Below, piece by piece: positions 1,581 to 53,095 of a stretch of DNA of 53,715 nucleotides. Positions within the stretch are counted from its first letter, which is position 1, and each line of letters begins with the position of its first letter. The notes beneath the pieces were generated by a model, which was not told the origin of the DNA, ran no database searches, and saw only the letters and a program-made list of their open reading frames with translations. The position numbers and the translations under genes were made by a program. The stretch comes from Centipeda periodontii DSM 2778 (GTDB lineage: Bacteria; Bacillota; Negativicutes; Selenomonadales; Selenomonadaceae), in assembly GCF_000213975.1 (NCBI RefSeq), contig NZ_GL892076.1, positions 1,908,560 to 1,962,274 on the forward strand. The letters run 5' to 3'.

Positions 1581-2987
1581 CTAAAGGATCAATGTCTCCG
1601 TCTGCGGCGGGATCGTATTTTCCTCCATCAGATCATGAACAATGCGCAGTCCGCGCGCCAGCTCCTCATTCGTTGGCGGCGAGCAGAGGGCGAGGCGAAT
1701 AAAGGAATGCTCCGCCTCCCCGCCGACGGCAAAGTGATCCGACGAGAGGACACAAACACCGCGATGCTGTGCCTGCGCCTCAAAATTCGCCCCACCGCAT
1801 CCCACAGGCAGCGGCATCCATTGGAAGAAGCCGCGTGTACTCTCCGTATGTGCAGGGAAGATCCCTCGAAAGATGCGATTGCGCTCCTCTGACATCCGAC
1901 ATTTCTCCCGCATTATACGCTCCGCCGCGCCGCTGGCAATCAGCTCTGATGCGATCTCCGCACTCAGCGGCGGGATCGCCATGCTGATGCTGCGCGCCGC
2001 TCTCCGAATGAGCTGCCTAAAATGCGCTGGAACAAGCATGTATGCAACACGCAGTCCGGGACAGGTAAGTTTTGAAAGACTGTGCAGATAAACGGACTGC
2101 CGCGGGAGGAGCACGGTCATGGGCGCAGCGTTCCCGCGTGCCGTAAAGCCGTAGGCATCGTCCTCAATCAAAAGCATATTGTGCTTACACAGCACCGCTG
2201 CAATCTCCCTGCGCCGTTCCTCAGGCATAACGATACCGGTCGGATTCGTGCAGGATGGCATAAGATAGACGCCCTTGATGTTTATCTGCTGATGCTGCTG
2301 TGCGAGCGCATCCGGCAGCATCCCGTCCACATCCCCCTCGATGGGGATGAGTCGGATGTTCAGCTGTTTTGCAAGGCTGATGAAATTCGCATACGTATAC
2401 CTGTCCACCGCAATTCGATCCCCTGCATCGAACAGCGCAGTGAGTACGATTGCAAGTGCACTCTGCGTGCCAGCAGTAAGAAGGAGATTCGTCGGCTCTG
2501 CCGCAAGAGAAAAACGCGCAAGCCAGCAGCACGCAGTCCGTGCATGACGCTCCTCATCCTCTGCACCGAGAAGCGCAAAGAGGTGCGCTGCATCCCTGCC
2601 GCGCAGGATCTCCCGTGCAGTATCCGCAAGAATCTCGCTAAGTGAATCGTACGGATGAATGCTACCAAGTTCAATAAGAGACTTTTTCGTATCTGCTGTT
2701 GTATTCGACAACGCTGCATTCGGCGAGACAAACGTCCCGCGCCCAATGACCGCATAGATCAGTCCCTTGTCCGTACAGAGACGAAAGGCGCGCGTTACCG
2801 TGCTCAGATTGAGATCGAGGTAGTCGGCAAGCTCCCGCTGCGGCGGGAGTTTTGTATGCGGCGACAGCCGTCCGCTGAGGATATCACGTTCAAGCTGCGC
2901 GGCAAGCGCACGGTAGAACGGAGGATGCAGATAGATACGTTCTGGACGCCACGTCATCGGATAATCATCGAACGAATTGATGGGCAT
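1581..2987 (-). CDS. MocR-type GntR/aminotransferase transcriptional regulator
   Basis: A 468-residue fusion. Residues about 20-90 are a GntR winged helix (LPPQRELADYLDLNLSTVTR, then GRGTFVSP). The rest is a fold-type I PLP aminotransferase domain with MPSCTNPTG and the PLP-lysine motif SLSKLTCPGLRVAYM. MocR proteins use bound PLP or an aldimine to sense vitamin B6 or amino-acid-like effectors. Here the gene is transcribed away from an MFS exporter, and the gap contains a perfect 12-bp inverted repeat, so control of that exporter and of itself is likely. The start is supported by GGGAG upstream. PdxR-like or TauR-like roles are possible, but no vitamin B6 gene is adjacent. Confidence 0.9.
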   Translation of the reverse strand: MPINSFDDYPMTWRPERIYLHPPFYRALAAQLERDILSGRLSPHTKLPPQRELADYLDLNLSTVTRAFRLCTDKGLIYAVIGRGTFVSPNAALSNTTADTKKSLIELGSIHPYDSLSEILADTAREILRGRDAAHLFALLGAEDEERHARTACCWLARFSLAAEPTNLLLTAGTQSALAIVLTALFDAGDRIAVDRYTYANFISLAKQLNIRLIPIEGDVDGMLPDALAQQHQQINIKGVYLMPSCTNPTGIVMPEERRREIAAVLCKHNMLLIEDDAYGFTARGNAAPMTVLLPRQSVYLHSLSKLTCPGLRVAYMLVPAHFRQLIRRAARSISMAIPPLSAEIASELIASGAAERIMREKCRMSEERNRIFRGIFPAHTESTRGFFQWMPLPVGCGGANFEAQAQHRGVCVLSSDHFAVGGEAEHSFIRLALCSPPTNEELARGLRIVHDLMEENTIPPQTETLIL

Positions 2988-45257: not shown

Positions 45258-45293
45258 CGTAAACGGAAATCGGTCACAGAGAGGATGATGGCT

Positions 45294-46922
45294 ATGAATA
45301 TCACCATTCGCATCTTGCAGCTGAAGGGACGGGCGCATGAACTCATCCACCGTTTCCCCGTCGCCGTCTTTTGGCAGGCAGCCCTGTTTCTCGTCGGTGC
45401 AGGCATTATCCTGCTGCGCCCCGATTTGTATGCGGAGGGTTGGCACAGCGACTATTTCGAGCATCTCGTACGCCTCGCCCCCGCCGTCTTCGGCGCATGG
45501 ATGATGGCGGTCATGTTCCGCCTCTTCACGGATGTATTTCCCGTGAAAAAATCCTTGCTGCTGCATGCGGCATCGTCTGCCGTCCTGTTCCTCCTCCTTG
45601 CCTATGCGTGGTATGGCGTGGAAAATCCGAGCCGCCATCTGATCATTGGAACGCAAGGCATCTATCTCGCACTCGCCTTCCTTGCGCTCTTTCTCCTCGA
45701 ACGAACAAACAAAGCCCCGGGGCTTCCCGCCCTTCTCTTTGCCGCCGCCTTTTCCATCGTGACGAGCATCCTGCTCTCTCTCGGGCTCATCCTCTGTGTC
45801 GCCGCATTCTGGGCACTGATCGTCACCGATGCGGACGGATGGCTGCCCGAGACGACCTATCTCTTCTCCGGTCTGATCGCATACGGCGGCTGGGGACTTG
45901 CCGCATTTCTCGGCGCACTGCCAAGTGCGAACGCACGCTATCAGTTCCCCGCCGCCACGCAGAAGCTGCTCCTCTATCTCTTCTTCCCCGTCTATCTCCT
46001 TCTGCTCATCGTTCTCTACCTCTACGTCGGCAAGATCATCGGCGTGGGCGAGATGCCCGTCGGCACGATGAATTGGTACGCCTCGTTCGCGCTCCTCGGC
46101 TTCGCCTTTTTCTTCGGCACACTTGCCGCGCAGGAGCGTCTTCCCCTCTTTTCCCGCTTTCTGAAATGGGGGCTTCTCCTCTTCCTCCCCATCCTCGCCG
46201 TCCAGCTCTACGGCGTCTATCTCCGCTATGAGGCATACGGACTGACAACGCTGCGCTACACCTCCATGATCTGTACGTTCTGCGGCATCTATGCGCTTGC
46301 CGTCGCCTTCCTTCGGCGAAAACCGCAGCAAGTATACCTCTGCGCCGCCATCCTCGCGCTCATCTTCAGTCTCACCCCGCTCAACGTCGTCGACGTACCG
46401 CTCCGCAGTCAGGAGGCACGGCTCAGTCAGCTGCTCACAGAACACAACCTCATGCAGGATGGACAGATCATAAAGCGTGACGACACGCCGCCCACGGTTG
46501 TGGACGAGATCATCGATATTGCGTTCTACCTCGAACAGGATGCCTCCCCGCTCGCCGCAGAGGTATTCGACACCAAGTTCAACGCGATGCGCGCGTCCTT
46601 TTACTTCTACGGAGAGGACTTTGAAGAACTCTCCATTGCAGGCTATCGCACGCTGCTCCCATTTGATTCGAACAAGATTACGCATGAGGGTGTCCTCGTC
46701 GTTCCGCGCACAGACGGCACGGAGGAACGCATTGACCTGAACCCCTACGCGCACATACTCGTACAATATGGAGAGCAAAACGAAAAATCCATCCTCAGCA
46801 AAGAACTGCAGAACTACGAGACAGGCAACTACCTCCTCCACTTCGACCATATTGCCGTCAGTCGAGCCGAGGACGGCCGTGTTGTCTGGGACAGTGCAAA
46901 GGGATTTGTACTCATACGCTAG
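45294..46922 (+). CDS. DUF4153-domain membrane protein
   Basis: A 542-residue inner-membrane protein. About ten to eleven helices fill residues 20-370, with aromatic-rich loops such as PDLYAEGWHSDYFEH. A soluble domain of about 170 residues follows, predicted outside the membrane and containing alternating strands (AFYLEQDASPLAAEVFDTKF). This matches DUF4153 proteins, which lack a known function. The ATG at 45294 has GAGAGG nine bases upstream and is preferred over two ATGs that abut it. A strong terminator follows. Confidence 0.82.
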   Translation: MNITIRILQLKGRAHELIHRFPVAVFWQAALFLVGAGIILLRPDLYAEGWHSDYFEHLVRLAPAVFGAWMMAVMFRLFTDVFPVKKSLLLHAASSAVLFLLLAYAWYGVENPSRHLIIGTQGIYLALAFLALFLLERTNKAPGLPALLFAAAFSIVTSILLSLGLILCVAAFWALIVTDADGWLPETTYLFSGLIAYGGWGLAAFLGALPSANARYQFPAATQKLLLYLFFPVYLLLLIVLYLYVGKIIGVGEMPVGTMNWYASFALLGFAFFFGTLAAQERLPLFSRFLKWGLLLFLPILAVQLYGVYLRYEAYGLTTLRYTSMICTFCGIYALAVAFLRRKPQQVYLCAAILALIFSLTPLNVVDVPLRSQEARLSQLLTEHNLMQDGQIIKRDDTPPTVVDEIIDIAFYLEQDASPLAAEVFDTKFNAMRASFYFYGEDFEELSIAGYRTLLPFDSNKITHEGVLVVPRTDGTEERIDLNPYAHILVQYGEQNEKSILSKELQNYETGNYLLHFDHIAVSRAEDGRVVWDSAKGFVLIR

Positions 46923-46961
46923 GGAAGCACGCCCTCCCTGTTCAATCTGTGCAATCATGCT

Positions 46962-47060
46962 GTGTTATCAGCGATGCCTAAAAAGGCTGTTGCACAAGGA
47001 CAAAATTGTCTTCGTGCAACAGCCTTTTTCATAGGACAGGATTTATCGGTGCTTCCTCAG
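46962..47060. repeat. Two IS-end-like sequences around a terminator
   Basis: On the minus strand, GGAAGCACCGATAAAT (at about 47044-47059) and TAGGCATCGCTGATAAC (at about 46963-46979) resemble the miniature-element and IS5 ends. Both point the same way, so this is not an intact inverted-repeat element. Confidence 0.4.
46980..47029. terminator. Bidirectional terminator between convergent genes
   Basis: A perfect 16-bp stem: 46980-46995 with 47014-47029, flanked by AAAAA and TTTTT. It lies between the DUF4153 gene and the H-NOX receptor gene. Confidence 0.85.
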
Positions 47061-48850
47061 GTCTTATAGTGATTGATATCTGCCGAGAACGCCGTCGTGA
47101 CATCCTTGAACTGCTTGATTTTTTCCATCATGTCCTGCAGCTTCAGATTATATGTGTGCATCGCAGCGTTGACTTCCTCAGTTGAGGCGGAGTTTTGCTC
47201 CGCCATAGCAGCGATATGCTCGACCTTGCTGAGAACATCTTCCATATTCGTCATCTCGGTCTTGATCTGCTCGATGATGCCCGAAATGCTTCCCGACACG
47301 CCGCGAATGTTGTCGATGTACTGACTGTTCCCCTCGACAACATGGACGAGCTGATTGCTCTCACGCTCCAAGACCTCATATTCCTCATTGACCGAAACGA
47401 CGACCTCGTTGATGATACGCGTGACCGCCATGACATCGGACGTGATGACCTCTGCATGTCCCTGTGACTGCTCGGCAAGTTTGCGGACTTCCTCGGCGAC
47501 GACACTGAACCCTCGCCCCTGCTCCCCTACCCGCGCCGCTTCAATCGCCGCATTGAGGGCGAGCAGGTTTGTCTGACCGGCGATATCCGTCACCAGCCCC
47601 GTGATCGCCATGATCTTCTCCGTCGCCTCTCTGAGGGACTCGACTGCTTCCTTCACCTCAGTGAATTTTTTCATGCTGTGATTGAGGTTCGTACTGGATG
47701 CCCGCACCTTGCTGAACCCCTCGTGAATGCTGTTGACGGCGTAATTCAACTCATCATTGTTCTTGACCTGCTCATTGATGACCGATTGCAGCGCTTTCAT
47801 ATTATCGTTGAGGAACGCAGCCACAGATATGGTATTCTCCGCCCCGGTCGTAGCGCTGTCGGCAATCTCGTTGATCACACCAGCGATATCCTCCGAGGCA
47901 CCCCCCATATTTTCAGCCAACCCGTCAAAGTCAATGCCATATCGCCGCAGTTCGTCCCCTGTCCCCTTGAAGCCCGTAAAGTTCGCCTGCGCCTGCTTGC
48001 GATACTTGATCAGCTTGTCACTCACCCGCTCGAACACGTCGCCTGAGCGAAGTGTCAGTGCGTCGAAATATTTGTTTTCCAACAGCTGATCGATTTCTTT
48101 TTCGATCGCGCCGAGCGGACGCAGGAGCATACCGGCGCCGATTGTAGCAAACATGGCACCGCACGCAGGAAGGACGAACGTCTTCCACGAAATATCGCTG
48201 ATGCTGATCAGCACGGATAAAATCAGAGTCCCTGCAAACGTCAGCAGACCAATGCCGCCCGCCAATGAGCCGGTAAAGGAAACAATCTTATTGATGCCAA
48301 AATTTTTCTCTCGGAAGATCGGTTTTTCAAAGGTGAGCTTCAGCTTCATATGAGTGGCTGTCTGTTCCAGTACCTCGACCCCGAGTTTTTCCTTAAAATA
48401 CTCGGTCGAACCATTGAGCAACCCGCGAAAATAGTCCAGAAGCCCCCGATTCGAGTCATAGGTAAATACCGCCTCGTATTCCGAAATCGGCGTCATAATA
48501 AGCTGAGGCGGTTTTGCGCCCGCAATCTTTTTCACAATCTCGACATGAATATCATACGTCGATGCCAAGAATGTATATAGATTTTTATTCGCGAAAAAAG
48601 ACGGATACACACGCGCAAAGGACTTGATATTATCGCGTCCCATTTCATACCAAATATCTCGAACAGACAGACCATTCGCCTTGCTGAGCGTGTCCATCAG
48701 GCGTTTGATCGTGCCGTCGTCAACGTCCTCAAGCGGCAGAAAGAGCCGATCCGGCTCCCACCCCATCTCCTGCATAACCCTGTCAACCAACGCATTGCCC
48801 CACAGCTCACGCGACGTACTAATCCAAGTTGCTACCACGGTACCTTTCAT
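47057..48850 (-). CDS. H-NOX methyl-accepting chemotaxis protein (heme gas sensor)
   Basis: A 597-residue membrane receptor. Residues 1-180 are an H-NOX heme domain. By residue count it carries Trp9, the proximal heme ligand His102 (DIHVEIV), Pro115 (AKPPQL), the heme-propionate triad Tyr131-x-Ser133-x-Arg135 and the distal Tyr140, all at the positions known from the Thermoanaerobacter Tar4 protein. Two membrane helices (about 185-245) and a HAMP-like linker follow. The methyl-accepting signalling domain has the hairpin tip region [27 protein letters not shown] supports the ATG at 48850. It should pass a gas signal to CheA; no che gene is in the window. Confidence 0.93.
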
Positions 48851-48911
48851 ATGATAGAGCCCTCCCGAACTCATATACACAATCTTCCCTAGTTTATATA
48901 ATAGGACATTT

Positions 48912-48946
48912 GTAGGAAAAAGAAAAGCAATTTTGCAGCTTTTCCT
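48912..48946 (-). terminator. Terminator of the SsuC-like permease gene
   Basis: GAAAAGC at 48922-48928 pairs with GCTTTTC at 48938-48944; on the minus strand TTTTTCC follows. Confidence 0.5.
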
Positions 48947-48989
48947 GTCGGATGGATTACAACGGTAAAAAGATGAGCAAATCGAAACC

Positions 48990-49736
48990 TTATGTCCGAC
49001 TCCATGCACACAGCCGCCGCTCCGCCCAGTCGAGCAGGATGAAGAGCACGAGCCCCATCGCGCTGAGGACGACGATGCCCGCGTACATATCGAGGTAGTT
49101 CACGCGTAGCCATGCATCCATGATGTAATAACCGATGCCATACTGAGTGCCGAATGTCTCCGTGAAGAAGAGGACGGAGATCGCCGTCGCCATCGCTACC
49201 CGAACGGCTGTGATAAACTTCGGCAAGGAGGCGGGCACGATGATGTGCCGCACGATCTGGGCGAATGTTGCGCCGAGGACGCGCAGCGGCGCATAGGTCT
49301 CGGGCGGGATCGCAGCCACGGCGTCGCGCACGGCGACGACGACCTGAAAGACGATGATAAGGAACACGAGGAGCATTTTGCTCGTCTCCCCCACGCCGAA
49401 GAGGAGCATGACAACGGGCAGCAGCGCGATCTTCGGCACGGGATAGGTCAGGTAGAGGATGGGCGCAAGCAGGCGGTTCACACGCGGGAAATAACCCATA
49501 AGCACGCCGACGGGATAGCCGACGGCAACAGCGACAACAAGGCCGAGGACGATGCGCAGGAGGCTGTAACCCGCGTGCACGGCGATCGTGTCGGGGAACT
49601 TCTGCATGAGCCGCAGGAGTACCTGCTCGGGCGACGGGATCACGGGCATCTGGAGAATCTGTGCCGTGACAGCCCAGAGTACAAGACAGAGAAATATGCC
49701 GAACGCAAACATCTGCAGCGAAATCTTGCCCATCAT
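48990..49736 (-). CDS. ABC permease, SsuC/TauC/NrtB type
   Basis: A 248-residue, six-helix inner-membrane permease of the nitrate/sulfonate/taurine importer family. The EAA-loop is [22 protein letters not shown], which contacts the ATPase. The N-terminal [12 protein letters not shown] is also typical. Its start overlaps the ATPase stop (ATGA). The substrate class could be sulfonates, nitrate or a thiamine precursor. No periplasmic binding protein gene is present in the window. Confidence 0.88.
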
Positions 49737-50504: not shown

Positions 50505-51575
50505 TGTTTTTATATGATGTTCTCAAACTTCGCAGATAAAATAACGAGATTCGCCGACGCAAAGAGCAGATAGTATTGCAGAAGGTTCTTCCTGATACCG
50601 CGATACCGCGTCTTGCCCGCATGAAACAGCCTCTTTACAATCAGAAACGGATGCTCCACCTTGCTGCGAACCGAGGCTTTCGCATGCTCGATCTGCTTGT
50701 CCCAATTCGTTTCTTTGTATTCTTTCGTCATGCGGTTCTGCGAATGTCTTTTGGCAATGCGGTAGTCCACACCTGAAAGATCGGGGTTCTCCCGTATTTC
50801 CGTGCGCTTTTCCACACCGAGATATCCCGAATCCCCATAGACAATATGATCATCTTCGCGGATCAGTTCATGTGTCTTTGCAATGTCGTGCACGTTGGCA
50901 ACGGTCGCTATAATCGTATGGACATAGCCTGTTCCGGCATCCGCACCGGAATGAATCTTCATGCCGAAGTACCACTGATTCCCCTTCTTCGTGGAGTGCA
51001 TCTCAGGATCGCGGGACTTTGTCGCGTTCTTGGTCGAACTCGGTGCATGAATGATCGTTGCATCCACAATCGTACCGCCGTGCATGATGAGTCCAGAGGC
51101 TTCCAACCGCTGTTTCACGTCATCGAACATCTTGCGAGTGATGTCGTGCTTTTCGAGCAGGTGACGAAAGTGGAGAAGCGTCGTGGCATCAGGTGTCTGT
51201 TCTGTGGAAAAATCAATCCGCAGAAAGCGTTTCATGGCGTAGCTGTCATAAATTGCATCCTCGATTCCTTCGTCAGAAAGACCGAACCAGTTCTGCATGA
51301 GGTACATGCGTAGCATCGTTTCCAGTGGAATCAGTTTTCTGCCACGCTCTGGACATAGTACGGCGCGATGAGTGCCATCCATTCGTTCCAAGGAATGATG
51401 GATTCCATGGCTTCCAGAAAGGCTTCACGCCGTGTTGTTCTCTTGCGGTTTGCGTATTCCATGTCCGTAAATGTTTGTTGCACCATTTTGTTTCTCTCCC
51501 TCATCGCGTTGTTTCTTCCTCTTATTGTAATCTTTCGGAGGTGAATCACGCAACAAAAGAATTTATCAGCGTTTC
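50505..51575 (-). mobile_element. IS5-family insertion sequence
   Basis: About 1.07 kb containing one transposase gene. The right end reads, inward, GGAAACGCTGATAAATTC (about 51558-51575). It matches miniature element copy B end at 16 of 18 positions. A clear matching left end was not found; only CGCAGATAAAAT near 50535 is similar, within the transposase 3' end. The left boundary is therefore approximate. Confidence 0.65.
50510..51486 (-). pseudogene. IS5-family transposase, frameshifted
   Basis: The N-terminal frame (from 51486, with GAGGGAGAG upstream) encodes MVQQTFTDMEYANRKRTTRR through WNEWMALIAPYY and then leaves frame. The remaining 290 residues continue in another frame from GRKLIPLETMLRMYLMQNWF. 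The join is near 51350-51357 and implies a one-base loss or two-base gain. The catalytic part keeps DATIIHAPSS, the YGDSGYLG segment and a late VEHPFLIVKRLF. Either the copy is dead or a programmed frameshift is used; no slippery run is obvious at the join. Confidence 0.8.
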
Positions 51576-51599
51576 CTTAACACCTCGTTGCTTTTAATT

Positions 51600-51698
51600 G
51601 TTTCAATCCACGTACCCCGTGCGGGGCGCGACTGTACGGATTGACTTCTCTCGATTGTCAATCCAGTTTCAATCCACGCGCCCCGTGCGGGGCGCGAC
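51600..51698 (-). CRISPR. Type I-C CRISPR remnant: two repeats, one spacer
   Basis: Two 33-bp repeats (51600-51632 and 51666-51698) flank a 33-bp spacer (51633-51665). They begin GTTTCAATCCACG and end GGGGCGCGAC, the type I-C repeat read on the opposite strand, with an internal CGCGCCCC/GGGGCGCG palindrome. The left repeat differs at two positions (TA for CG), as expected for the distal end of an array transcribed leftward. The leader would lie to the right, where an ISL3-family element now begins 36 bp away. No cas gene is in the window. Confidence 0.85.
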
Positions 51699-51734
51699 TT
51701 TCGCGTGCATTACCATGTCAAGTCCTTGGTTTCG

Positions 51735-53040
51735 GCTCTTTGTCAATGCTTGGGGAGAAAAATAATGGAGATTTTTAGGAAAATTTTGTCCGACGGCTTT
51801 TCCGTTCCTCATCGTTGATAATATACATGATGCGACGTCGGAAGTTTGCGAAGTTCCGGAATCCGTAGCAGACTCGTTTTAGGACTTTAATCGTATTGTT
51901 GCAGCCCTCGGTGAATCCGTTGTTATATCCGGTACGGATTCCGTTCCAGATTTCTTCTTTCCACTGTTCGATCGTCTTTAGAACTCTGATGAATGGCGCA
52001 ATATTGGAGGCAAGAACGTGCTCCCTAAAATCCCGCAGCCGCTCCTTAAACATTTTCCGATCACAGCTGTCAAAAATACGACAGTATTCTTCTTTCAAGG
52101 CGTGGGCAACAGCCAATTTGTCGGAGAAGCTGAACATCTGTGAGAGTTTTGCGCGTTCCCCGGAGCTGAGTTTTTGCTGTCGCCGGAGCAGCACACGGCG
52201 TGCATTTTTGAACCATTTCTTATGTGGTTTATCAAGCTCTTTCTGGACTTCTTTTCGGATGCTGTCCAATGCCTCGTTGGCAAGTCGCACTGCATGGAAC
52301 TTGTCGGCTACGATTTCTGCATTGGGAAAAAAATCCTCAACGAGCCGACGAAAGAGCGGAGATAAATCCATGCTGACCATCGCAACACGTTCACGATCCA
52401 CAAGCGGATAGCTTCGGATTCTGTCATAGAATGTTGCAACGCTCCGATCATCGATGATGTCACAGCACCTACGATTCTGCAAATCGTTGAGCACGACCTG
52501 AAATTTTGCACCGGCATTTCCGCGAAACTCATCGATTGAGATGACGGTACTTAAGGTTTTTTCGCTTGCTGTCTCTTTTTCCTCAACACGGTTTATGGCT
52601 CGCTCAAAATGACGCATAATGGTGTTCACTGAAATTCCGTGTCTGCGTGCAATAAGCGCGGACGGAACAAGTTCGTTATGCTCCTTGATGATGTTGTCGA
52701 TTTCACTGCGGGGCATCCGTTGACAAGGATCTATGAACGGATTGTTCTCGGAGAATTTTTTCCCGCAATCTTGGCAACGATATCGCCGTCTATTGTAGAT
52801 ATAATTTGTTTCTGATGGAATCCCGCACAGGTTTTGTTTCCGATAGTCATGTGTATAGGTGTGCTGCGACCCGCAATCAGGGCAGACATGATGCTTACGC
52901 GGCAAATGAAATTGTACGCAGCTCTCAGTGGTTATTTCCTTGCAGTCCTCTGGTAGTTTTAATAAAAAAATGTTAAAATCCTCGTACATGGAGAAAGCCC
53001 CTTTCTGATTGTTTTCGCCAACACACAGTATAGCGGAATT
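51735..53040 (-). mobile_element. ISL3-family insertion sequence
   Basis: The left end is GGCTCTTTGTCAATG, a typical ISL3-family terminus, at 51735. The right end is unclear: CAACACACAGTATAGCGG near 53019-53036 resembles the interior of such ends, but the expected GAAGAGCC-like tip is missing. The element holds one intact transposase gene. It lies against the CRISPR remnant. Confidence 0.7.
51775..52989 (-). CDS. ISL3-family transposase
   Basis: A 404-residue transposase. The N-terminal zinc-finger region has CPDCGSQH and CQDCGKKF pairs. An HTH (IARRHGISVNTIMRHF) and the DDE domain follow: ISIDEFRG, SMDLSPLFRRLVEDFFPNAE, ADKFHAVRLANEALD and the C-terminal NNGFTEGCNNTIKVLKR. These are characteristic of the ISL3 group. 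AAAGGGG precedes the ATG at 52989. The frame is intact, so this copy may be active. Confidence 0.92.
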   Translation of the reverse strand: MYEDFNIFLLKLPEDCKEITTESCVQFHLPRKHHVCPDCGSQHTYTHDYRKQNLCGIPSETNYIYNRRRYRCQDCGKKFSENNPFIDPCQRMPRSEIDNIIKEHNELVPSALIARRHGISVNTIMRHFERAINRVEEKETASEKTLSTVISIDEFRGNAGAKFQVVLNDLQNRRCCDIIDDRSVATFYDRIRSYPLVDRERVAMVSMDLSPLFRRLVEDFFPNAEIVADKFHAVRLANEALDSIRKEVQKELDKPHKKWFKNARRVLLRRQQKLSSGERAKLSQMFSFSDKLAVAHALKEEYCRIFDSCDRKMFKERLRDFREHVLASNIAPFIRVLKTIEQWKEEIWNGIRTGYNNGFTEGCNNTIKVLKRVCYGFRNFANFRRRIMYIINDEERKSRRTKFS

Positions 53041-53049
53041 TCTCCATGA

Positions 53050-53095
53050 AAAAAAGGATGGATGCCAGCATTTGCGGTCATCCATCCTTTTTTTT
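53050..53095. terminator. Terminator after ssb
   Basis: GGATGGATG at 53056-53064 pairs with CATCCATCC at 53079-53087, flanked by an A-run and a T-run. It can stop transcription in both directions. Confidence 0.8.

Follow-up and report, generated by a model that had tools for sequence, protein, structure and literature searches.

The bacterium Centipeda periodontii DSM 2778 possesses a gene for a chemoreceptor in which an H-NOX domain of the O2-binding type is fused to a chemotaxis transducer. The gene is located at positions 47057-48850 (minus strand) of the window, which is the whole stretch of 53,715 nucleotides that was analysed. By strong homology, the protein is predicted to bind heme and O2, and it represents an ordinary case of the H-NOX-MCP receptors of the O2-binding type. 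We estimate a probability of roughly 0.8 that it acts as a membrane-anchored heme chemoreceptor of the same kind as the H-NOX protein from Thermoanaerobacter tengcongensis (Tt) and that O2 is the signal, irrespective of whether the cells are attracted or repelled. In the literature it is the accepted view that H-NOX-MCP fusions of strict anaerobes bind O2 through a Tyr residue and that O2 chemotaxis is their probable role (PMC8738867; PMC9814294).

The coordinates of a preliminary description of the gene were confirmed by translation, which yielded 597 residues and a stop codon; the strand had been omitted there. Mechanically, the open reading frame extends to a GTG codon at 49009, corresponding to a protein of 650 amino acids. 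This longer start was rejected because the homologues start at MKGT. In the four other carriers within the genus (L002-L005), just 8-9 codons of open frame precede the same Met, which supports the MKGT start at 48850. A promoter scan of the minus strand from 46800 to 49200 listed a single site inside the H-NOX-MCP gene and none upstream of its start. Moreover, a hairpin with A and T runs (46980-47029, no strand assigned) is present between the convergent genes encoding a DUF4153 protein and the H-NOX-MCP. Folding of the region 46975-47040 gave -35.5 kcal/mol with a z-score of -7.72, and the hairpin is probably a two-way terminator for both genes. It was not listed by a simple terminator scan. 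The H-NOX-MCP gene looks like a separate transcription unit, and some members of the genus seem to have lost it.

The protein consists of a sensor, a hydrophobic region and a transducer. The H-NOX domain (HNOB, Pfam PF07700) comprises residues 2-159 (48374-48847, minus strand) and scores 143.2 bits against a curated cut-off of 25.5, with positions 1-162 of the 163 profile positions being covered. It is followed by hydrophobic stretches at about residues 195-243 (48122-48268, minus strand), where 19-residue hydropathy windows exceeding 1.6 are centred at residues 204-212, 218 and 233-234. From this hydropathy profile, the stretches are read as two putative membrane helices joining the sensor to the transducer. 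The MCP signalling domain (MCPsignal, Pfam PF00015) spans residues 383-545 (47216-47704, minus strand) and scores 105.3 bits against a cut-off of 34.6. A third Pfam match, to ATG17_like, stays below its cut-off. No NCBIfam model reached its cut-off for the protein; the highest score, 84.7 against a cut-off of 1200, came from Aer2 and covered the MCP portion.

Sequence comparisons place the sensor domain next to Tt H-NOX. The domain matches 26 distinct PDB sequences (E 1.8e-49 to PDB 1U4H), and the best ten matches (E 1.4e-49 to 4.6e-48) are Tt H-NOX and its single and double mutants, as judged from five alignments and the entry titles. A MAFFT alignment revealed 78 identities over 182 columns (43%). 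Each of the 12 positions that were checked aligns with its counterpart in Tt H-NOX, and ten are identical, namely W9, N74, F78, H102, P115, Y131, S133, R135, Y140 and L144, which share both residue and number. Thus, the numbering that had been proposed for Trp9, His102, Pro115, Tyr131/Ser133/Arg135 and Tyr140 is exact. The proximal His102 and the YxSxR heme motif (Y131, S133, R135) are present. At the two other positions, Ile5 of Tt H-NOX is replaced by Val and Phe82 by Tyr. The earlier assignment to the distal-Tyr type of H-NOX fused to a transducer agrees with the alignment of Y140, W9 and N74 with Tt and with the MCP domain at residues 383-545. A structural model of the H-NOX domain generated with AlphaFold2 from this sequence and two relatives (L006, L007) had a mean pLDDT of 64.2, with values below 50 at residues 103-115 around the heme site. 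In Foldseek, this low-confidence model ranked Tt H-NOX first (E 3.5e-15, TM 0.38), but it superposed poorly on 1U4H (TM 0.38, E 4.4e-15) and was too poor to locate Tyr140.

To put these residues into context, 97 distinct HNOB-matching genomes were sorted into 85 with complete fusions, six with alignable stand-alone H-NOX proteins and six that were left out. The latter comprise L060 (in-frame stop), L097 and L098 (domain split over frames), G525 (below cut-off), and L092 and L096, which are short frames of 179 and 204 amino acids showing no tblastn match to the C. periodontii domain. L001, L006 and L007 were removed as copies of the C. periodontii sequence, L003 and L004. All 85 complete fusions, including that of C. 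periodontii, have the nine residues W9, N74, F78, H102, P115, Y131, S133, R135 and Y140. In total, 42 positions of the C. periodontii sequence are invariant over the fusions, including W9, N74, H102 and Y140, and position 82 is occupied by Tyr in 65 and by Phe in 20 of them. The six stand-alone proteins from the phylum sample retain H102, P115 and YxSxR, whereas none of them has W9, N74 or Y140; at position 140, four carry Leu and two Ile. The stand-alone proteins form a single group in the tree (100/99); the program flagged long branches in the deepest part of this tree. The difference between the fusions and the stand-alone proteins therefore counts as one deep, old split of the family and not as 85 independent tests.

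NO-selective H-NOX proteins share the proximal His and the YxSxR motif. The H-NOX fold is common to the C. periodontii protein and to the NO-selective group, which includes the proteins from Shewanella oneidensis and Vibrio cholerae, those of the Caulobacter type and sGC. However, the NO-selective proteins reportedly differ from the Tyr type in lacking the distal Tyr and a stable O2 complex, and they act on kinases or c-di-GMP enzymes and are not fused to an MCP (PMC9814294). The protein of Thermoanaerobacter (Caldanaerobacter) tengcongensis (PDB 1U4H, 1U55, 1XBN) is likewise fused to an MCP, and our comparison with it covers the H-NOX domain (PMC9814294). In air, Ct H-NOX shows a Soret band near 416 nm and Q bands near 555 and 590 nm (PMC9814294). 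According to the same source, this organism is a thermophile that grows best at 75-86 C, whereas C. periodontii is a relative of the selenomonads. Clostridium botulinum, an obligate anaerobe, also has an H-NOX protein with a distal Tyr and is likened here by description (PMC7356049, in part); a cited title indicates that its H-NOX binds O2 and has a less stable oxy form (PMC8738867). Counting against the main reading, Cb and Cs H-NOX are described as having the same residues nearest to the bound ligand and a "characteristically differing" behaviour, so that more than the distal pocket must be decisive according to that study (PMC7356049).

By analogy with the family, the N-terminal domain, which is taken as cytoplasmic, would hold a ferrous heme via His102 and the residues Tyr131, Ser133 and Arg135. 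O2 would bind on the distal side, where Tyr140 would hold it through a hydrogen bond with the help of Trp9 and Asn74. A shift of the heme and the domain might then be transmitted through the membrane hairpin to the coiled coil of the MCP and change the activity of CheA, a signal path likewise borrowed from the family. The altered CheA activity would bias the flagella. For an anaerobe, this would probably serve to steer relative to O2, and more likely away from it, although the sign is a guess. C. periodontii itself is presumably an anaerobe, judging from its relatives.

The genomic context provides the partners for such a pathway. Matches to flagellin families and to the CheA dimerisation domain were found in all 14 genus genomes searched, C. 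periodontii included; the genome of C. periodontii has three of the former, one of which is weak (E 3.8e-7), and one of the latter. It also contains 11 MCPsignal matches, two of which have a stop inside the match. Among the ten other MCP frames, Pfam recognises sensor domains of the extracytoplasmic type above cut-off in five, namely dCache in L101, L102 and L106, sCache_3_3 in L104 and 4HB in L110. A 4HB match in L103 is below the cut-off, and neither L105 nor L107 gave a sensor-domain match in Pfam; the scans of L106 and L109 began after the first 45-47 residues. None of the ten frames has an HNOB domain according to Pfam. Therefore, the H-NOX-MCP is the sole receptor for heme-bound gases that Pfam recognises among the MCP frames of this genome. 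The remaining two of the ten frames carry other domains. L109 (G000:C1:1101264-1101539, plus strand) combines a FIST domain with an MCP signalling domain. L111 (G000:C1:2042263-2042685, minus strand) is an Aer-like PAS_3-MCP frame ended by a TAA stop inside its MCP match, and is possibly a second redox or aerotaxis receptor that has been lost.

The supply of heme was also considered. No ferrochelatase above the family cut-off was detected in the genome of C. periodontii (18.8 bits versus 27), and one of the 14 genus genomes has a match above it. A model for AhbD matches a tandem pair of radical-SAM proteins in all 14 genus genomes; the scores of 348-357 and 225-237 bits fall short of the curated cut-off of 500, and this model also picks up weaker radical-SAM proteins and matches in 14 of 14 control genomes, one of them above the cut-off. 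In C. periodontii, the AhbD-like tandem is located at G000:C1:248931-251170 (352 and 235 bits). The AhbD-like pair and the lack of a ferrochelatase above cut-off suggest a siroheme-dependent route, which is the likely mode of heme synthesis as judged from sequence matches.

The preliminary description had proposed aerotaxis away from oxygen, and this proposal stands in part. It agrees with the O2-type H-NOX-MCP, with the presence of flagellin and CheA and with the selenomonad relatives. It is less secure in its choice of O2 over NO as the ligand and in the avoidance, given the distribution of cytochrome bd, the binding of NO by H-NOX proteins of the Tyr type and the presence of the gene in only five of 14 genus genomes. 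Avoidance of O2 is a guess that we put slightly above even odds. Cytochrome bd subunit I is encoded in all 14 genus genomes, that of C. periodontii included, which makes O2 reduction by this organism probable and an attraction to O2 traces conceivable. As a variant of the main reading, the receptor could thus sense O2 as an attractant or a set-point, guiding the cells toward traces and away from larger amounts. We regard this variant as rather unlikely: cytochrome bd may merely remove O2, and the occurrence of the H-NOX domain does not track that of the oxidase.

The physiological signal could also be NO that host cells or nitrate reducers nearby release, with the binding of O2 being a side effect of the pocket. 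Tt H-NOX binds NO and CO as well, and the H-NOX of C. botulinum has been titled an NO sensor with femtomolar sensitivity (both as stated in parts of PMC9814294). Moreover, the title of PDB entry 1XBN refers to a bacterial nitric oxide sensor, and one of the named relatives is designated an "oral taxon", which suggests a host setting. However, the presence of the Tyr in the 85 fusions and its absence from the six stand-alone proteins are in keeping with selection of a hydrogen-bond donor on the distal side, and the literature, in the passages cited here, favours O2 for the MCP-fused group (PMC8738867; PMC9814294). An NO signal is improbable in our judgement, and O2 is retained as the signal of the main reading, even though its role in chemotaxis is described as only likely or presumed even for well-studied members (PMC8738867; PMC9814294) and the O2-sensor function as yet to be demonstrated (PMC9814294). 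A heme-free redox sensor based on cysteines, as reported in part of a study for the V. cholerae H-NOX (PMC7108781), has next to no probability and was rejected because the H-NOX domain lacks Cys and the sole Cys of the whole protein is residue 230 in the hydrophobic segment.

The genome of C. periodontii (2.76 Mb, eight contigs) harbours a single copy of HNOB. The domain was found in five of 14 genus genomes (C. periodontii included), 17 of 151 family genomes, 56 of 300 class genomes and 40 of 398 genomes of the phylum sample, one of the last being below cut-off; these samples overlap. The 14 control genomes contained one match, in Caulobacter vibrioides. The domain shares 97% identity with that of Selenomonas infelix ATCC 43532, which is now Centipeda infelix of the class Negativicutes (NCBI taxonomy), and 94% with that of Selenomonas sp. 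oral taxon 892. On the basis of this relationship, the class that was searched is taken to be the Negativicutes. In C. periodontii and three other carriers (G005, G002 and G011), the receptor gene adjoins an ABC permease/ATPase pair, and genes for a glutamine synthetase (Gln-synt_C), which by our reading of its length is of type III, and for a Clp-type ATPase are located nearby. In C. periodontii, G005 and G002, a DUF4153 gene (a partial match in G002) separates the synthetase from the receptor; none was found in G011. In the fifth carrier (G010), the receptor and DUF4153 are on different contigs, and no other compared neighbour gene occurs within 15 kb around the receptor. In two genomes without HNOB, G012 (L129) and G007 (L130), the matches to DUF4153 and the ABC permease are about 60 bases apart, as compared with 45285-49736 in the window, and this junction is the empty site for a single gene.

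In the tree, the 59 sequences of the class cluster together (100/99), and the five from the genus form a cluster of their own (99/97). These groups and the shared site in four of the five carriers do not favour a horizontal gain within the genus, and losses fit the pattern better, a gain at one site being conceivable but less likely. Beyond the ABC pair, the window contains two transposase genes of the DDE_Tnp_1 and ISL3 types (50510-53085, minus strand); no match to them was found when eight stretches from sister species were compared. At the other end of the window, ARAGORN called a tmRNA with an odd tag peptide (2028-2421, minus strand); the call is probably false since Rfam finds none at the gathering score.

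The H-NOX-MCP is dispensable, since all 14 genus genomes have flagellin, CheA and cytochrome bd matches and yet nine do without the receptor gene. We tentatively suggest, while considering it somewhat doubtful, that in selenomonads of the Centipeda type the receptor gene is optional and tied to particular niches, forming a single-gene module that resides in most carriers at one fixed chromosomal site and is kept or lost between sister species. Neighbouring species in a biofilm would then differ in whether they steer by O2 (or by NO from the host), and the Tyr82 variant of the pocket might shift the O2 affinity to suit the niche. The molecular idea of an H-NOX-MCP as an O2 receptor is about twenty years old and thus not new. 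Among the open-licence papers listed for H-NOX or HNOB in Selenomonas, Veillonella and the Negativicutes and for aerotaxis of Selenomonas, no title or beginning of an abstract describes this receptor. Our analysis extends a well-studied receptor type to Negativicutes of the Centipeda/Selenomonas type, in which sister species without the gene serve as natural controls and one carrier, S. infelix ATCC 43532, is held in a culture collection. Such species could make the presumed steering of anaerobes by O2 via an H-NOX-MCP testable.
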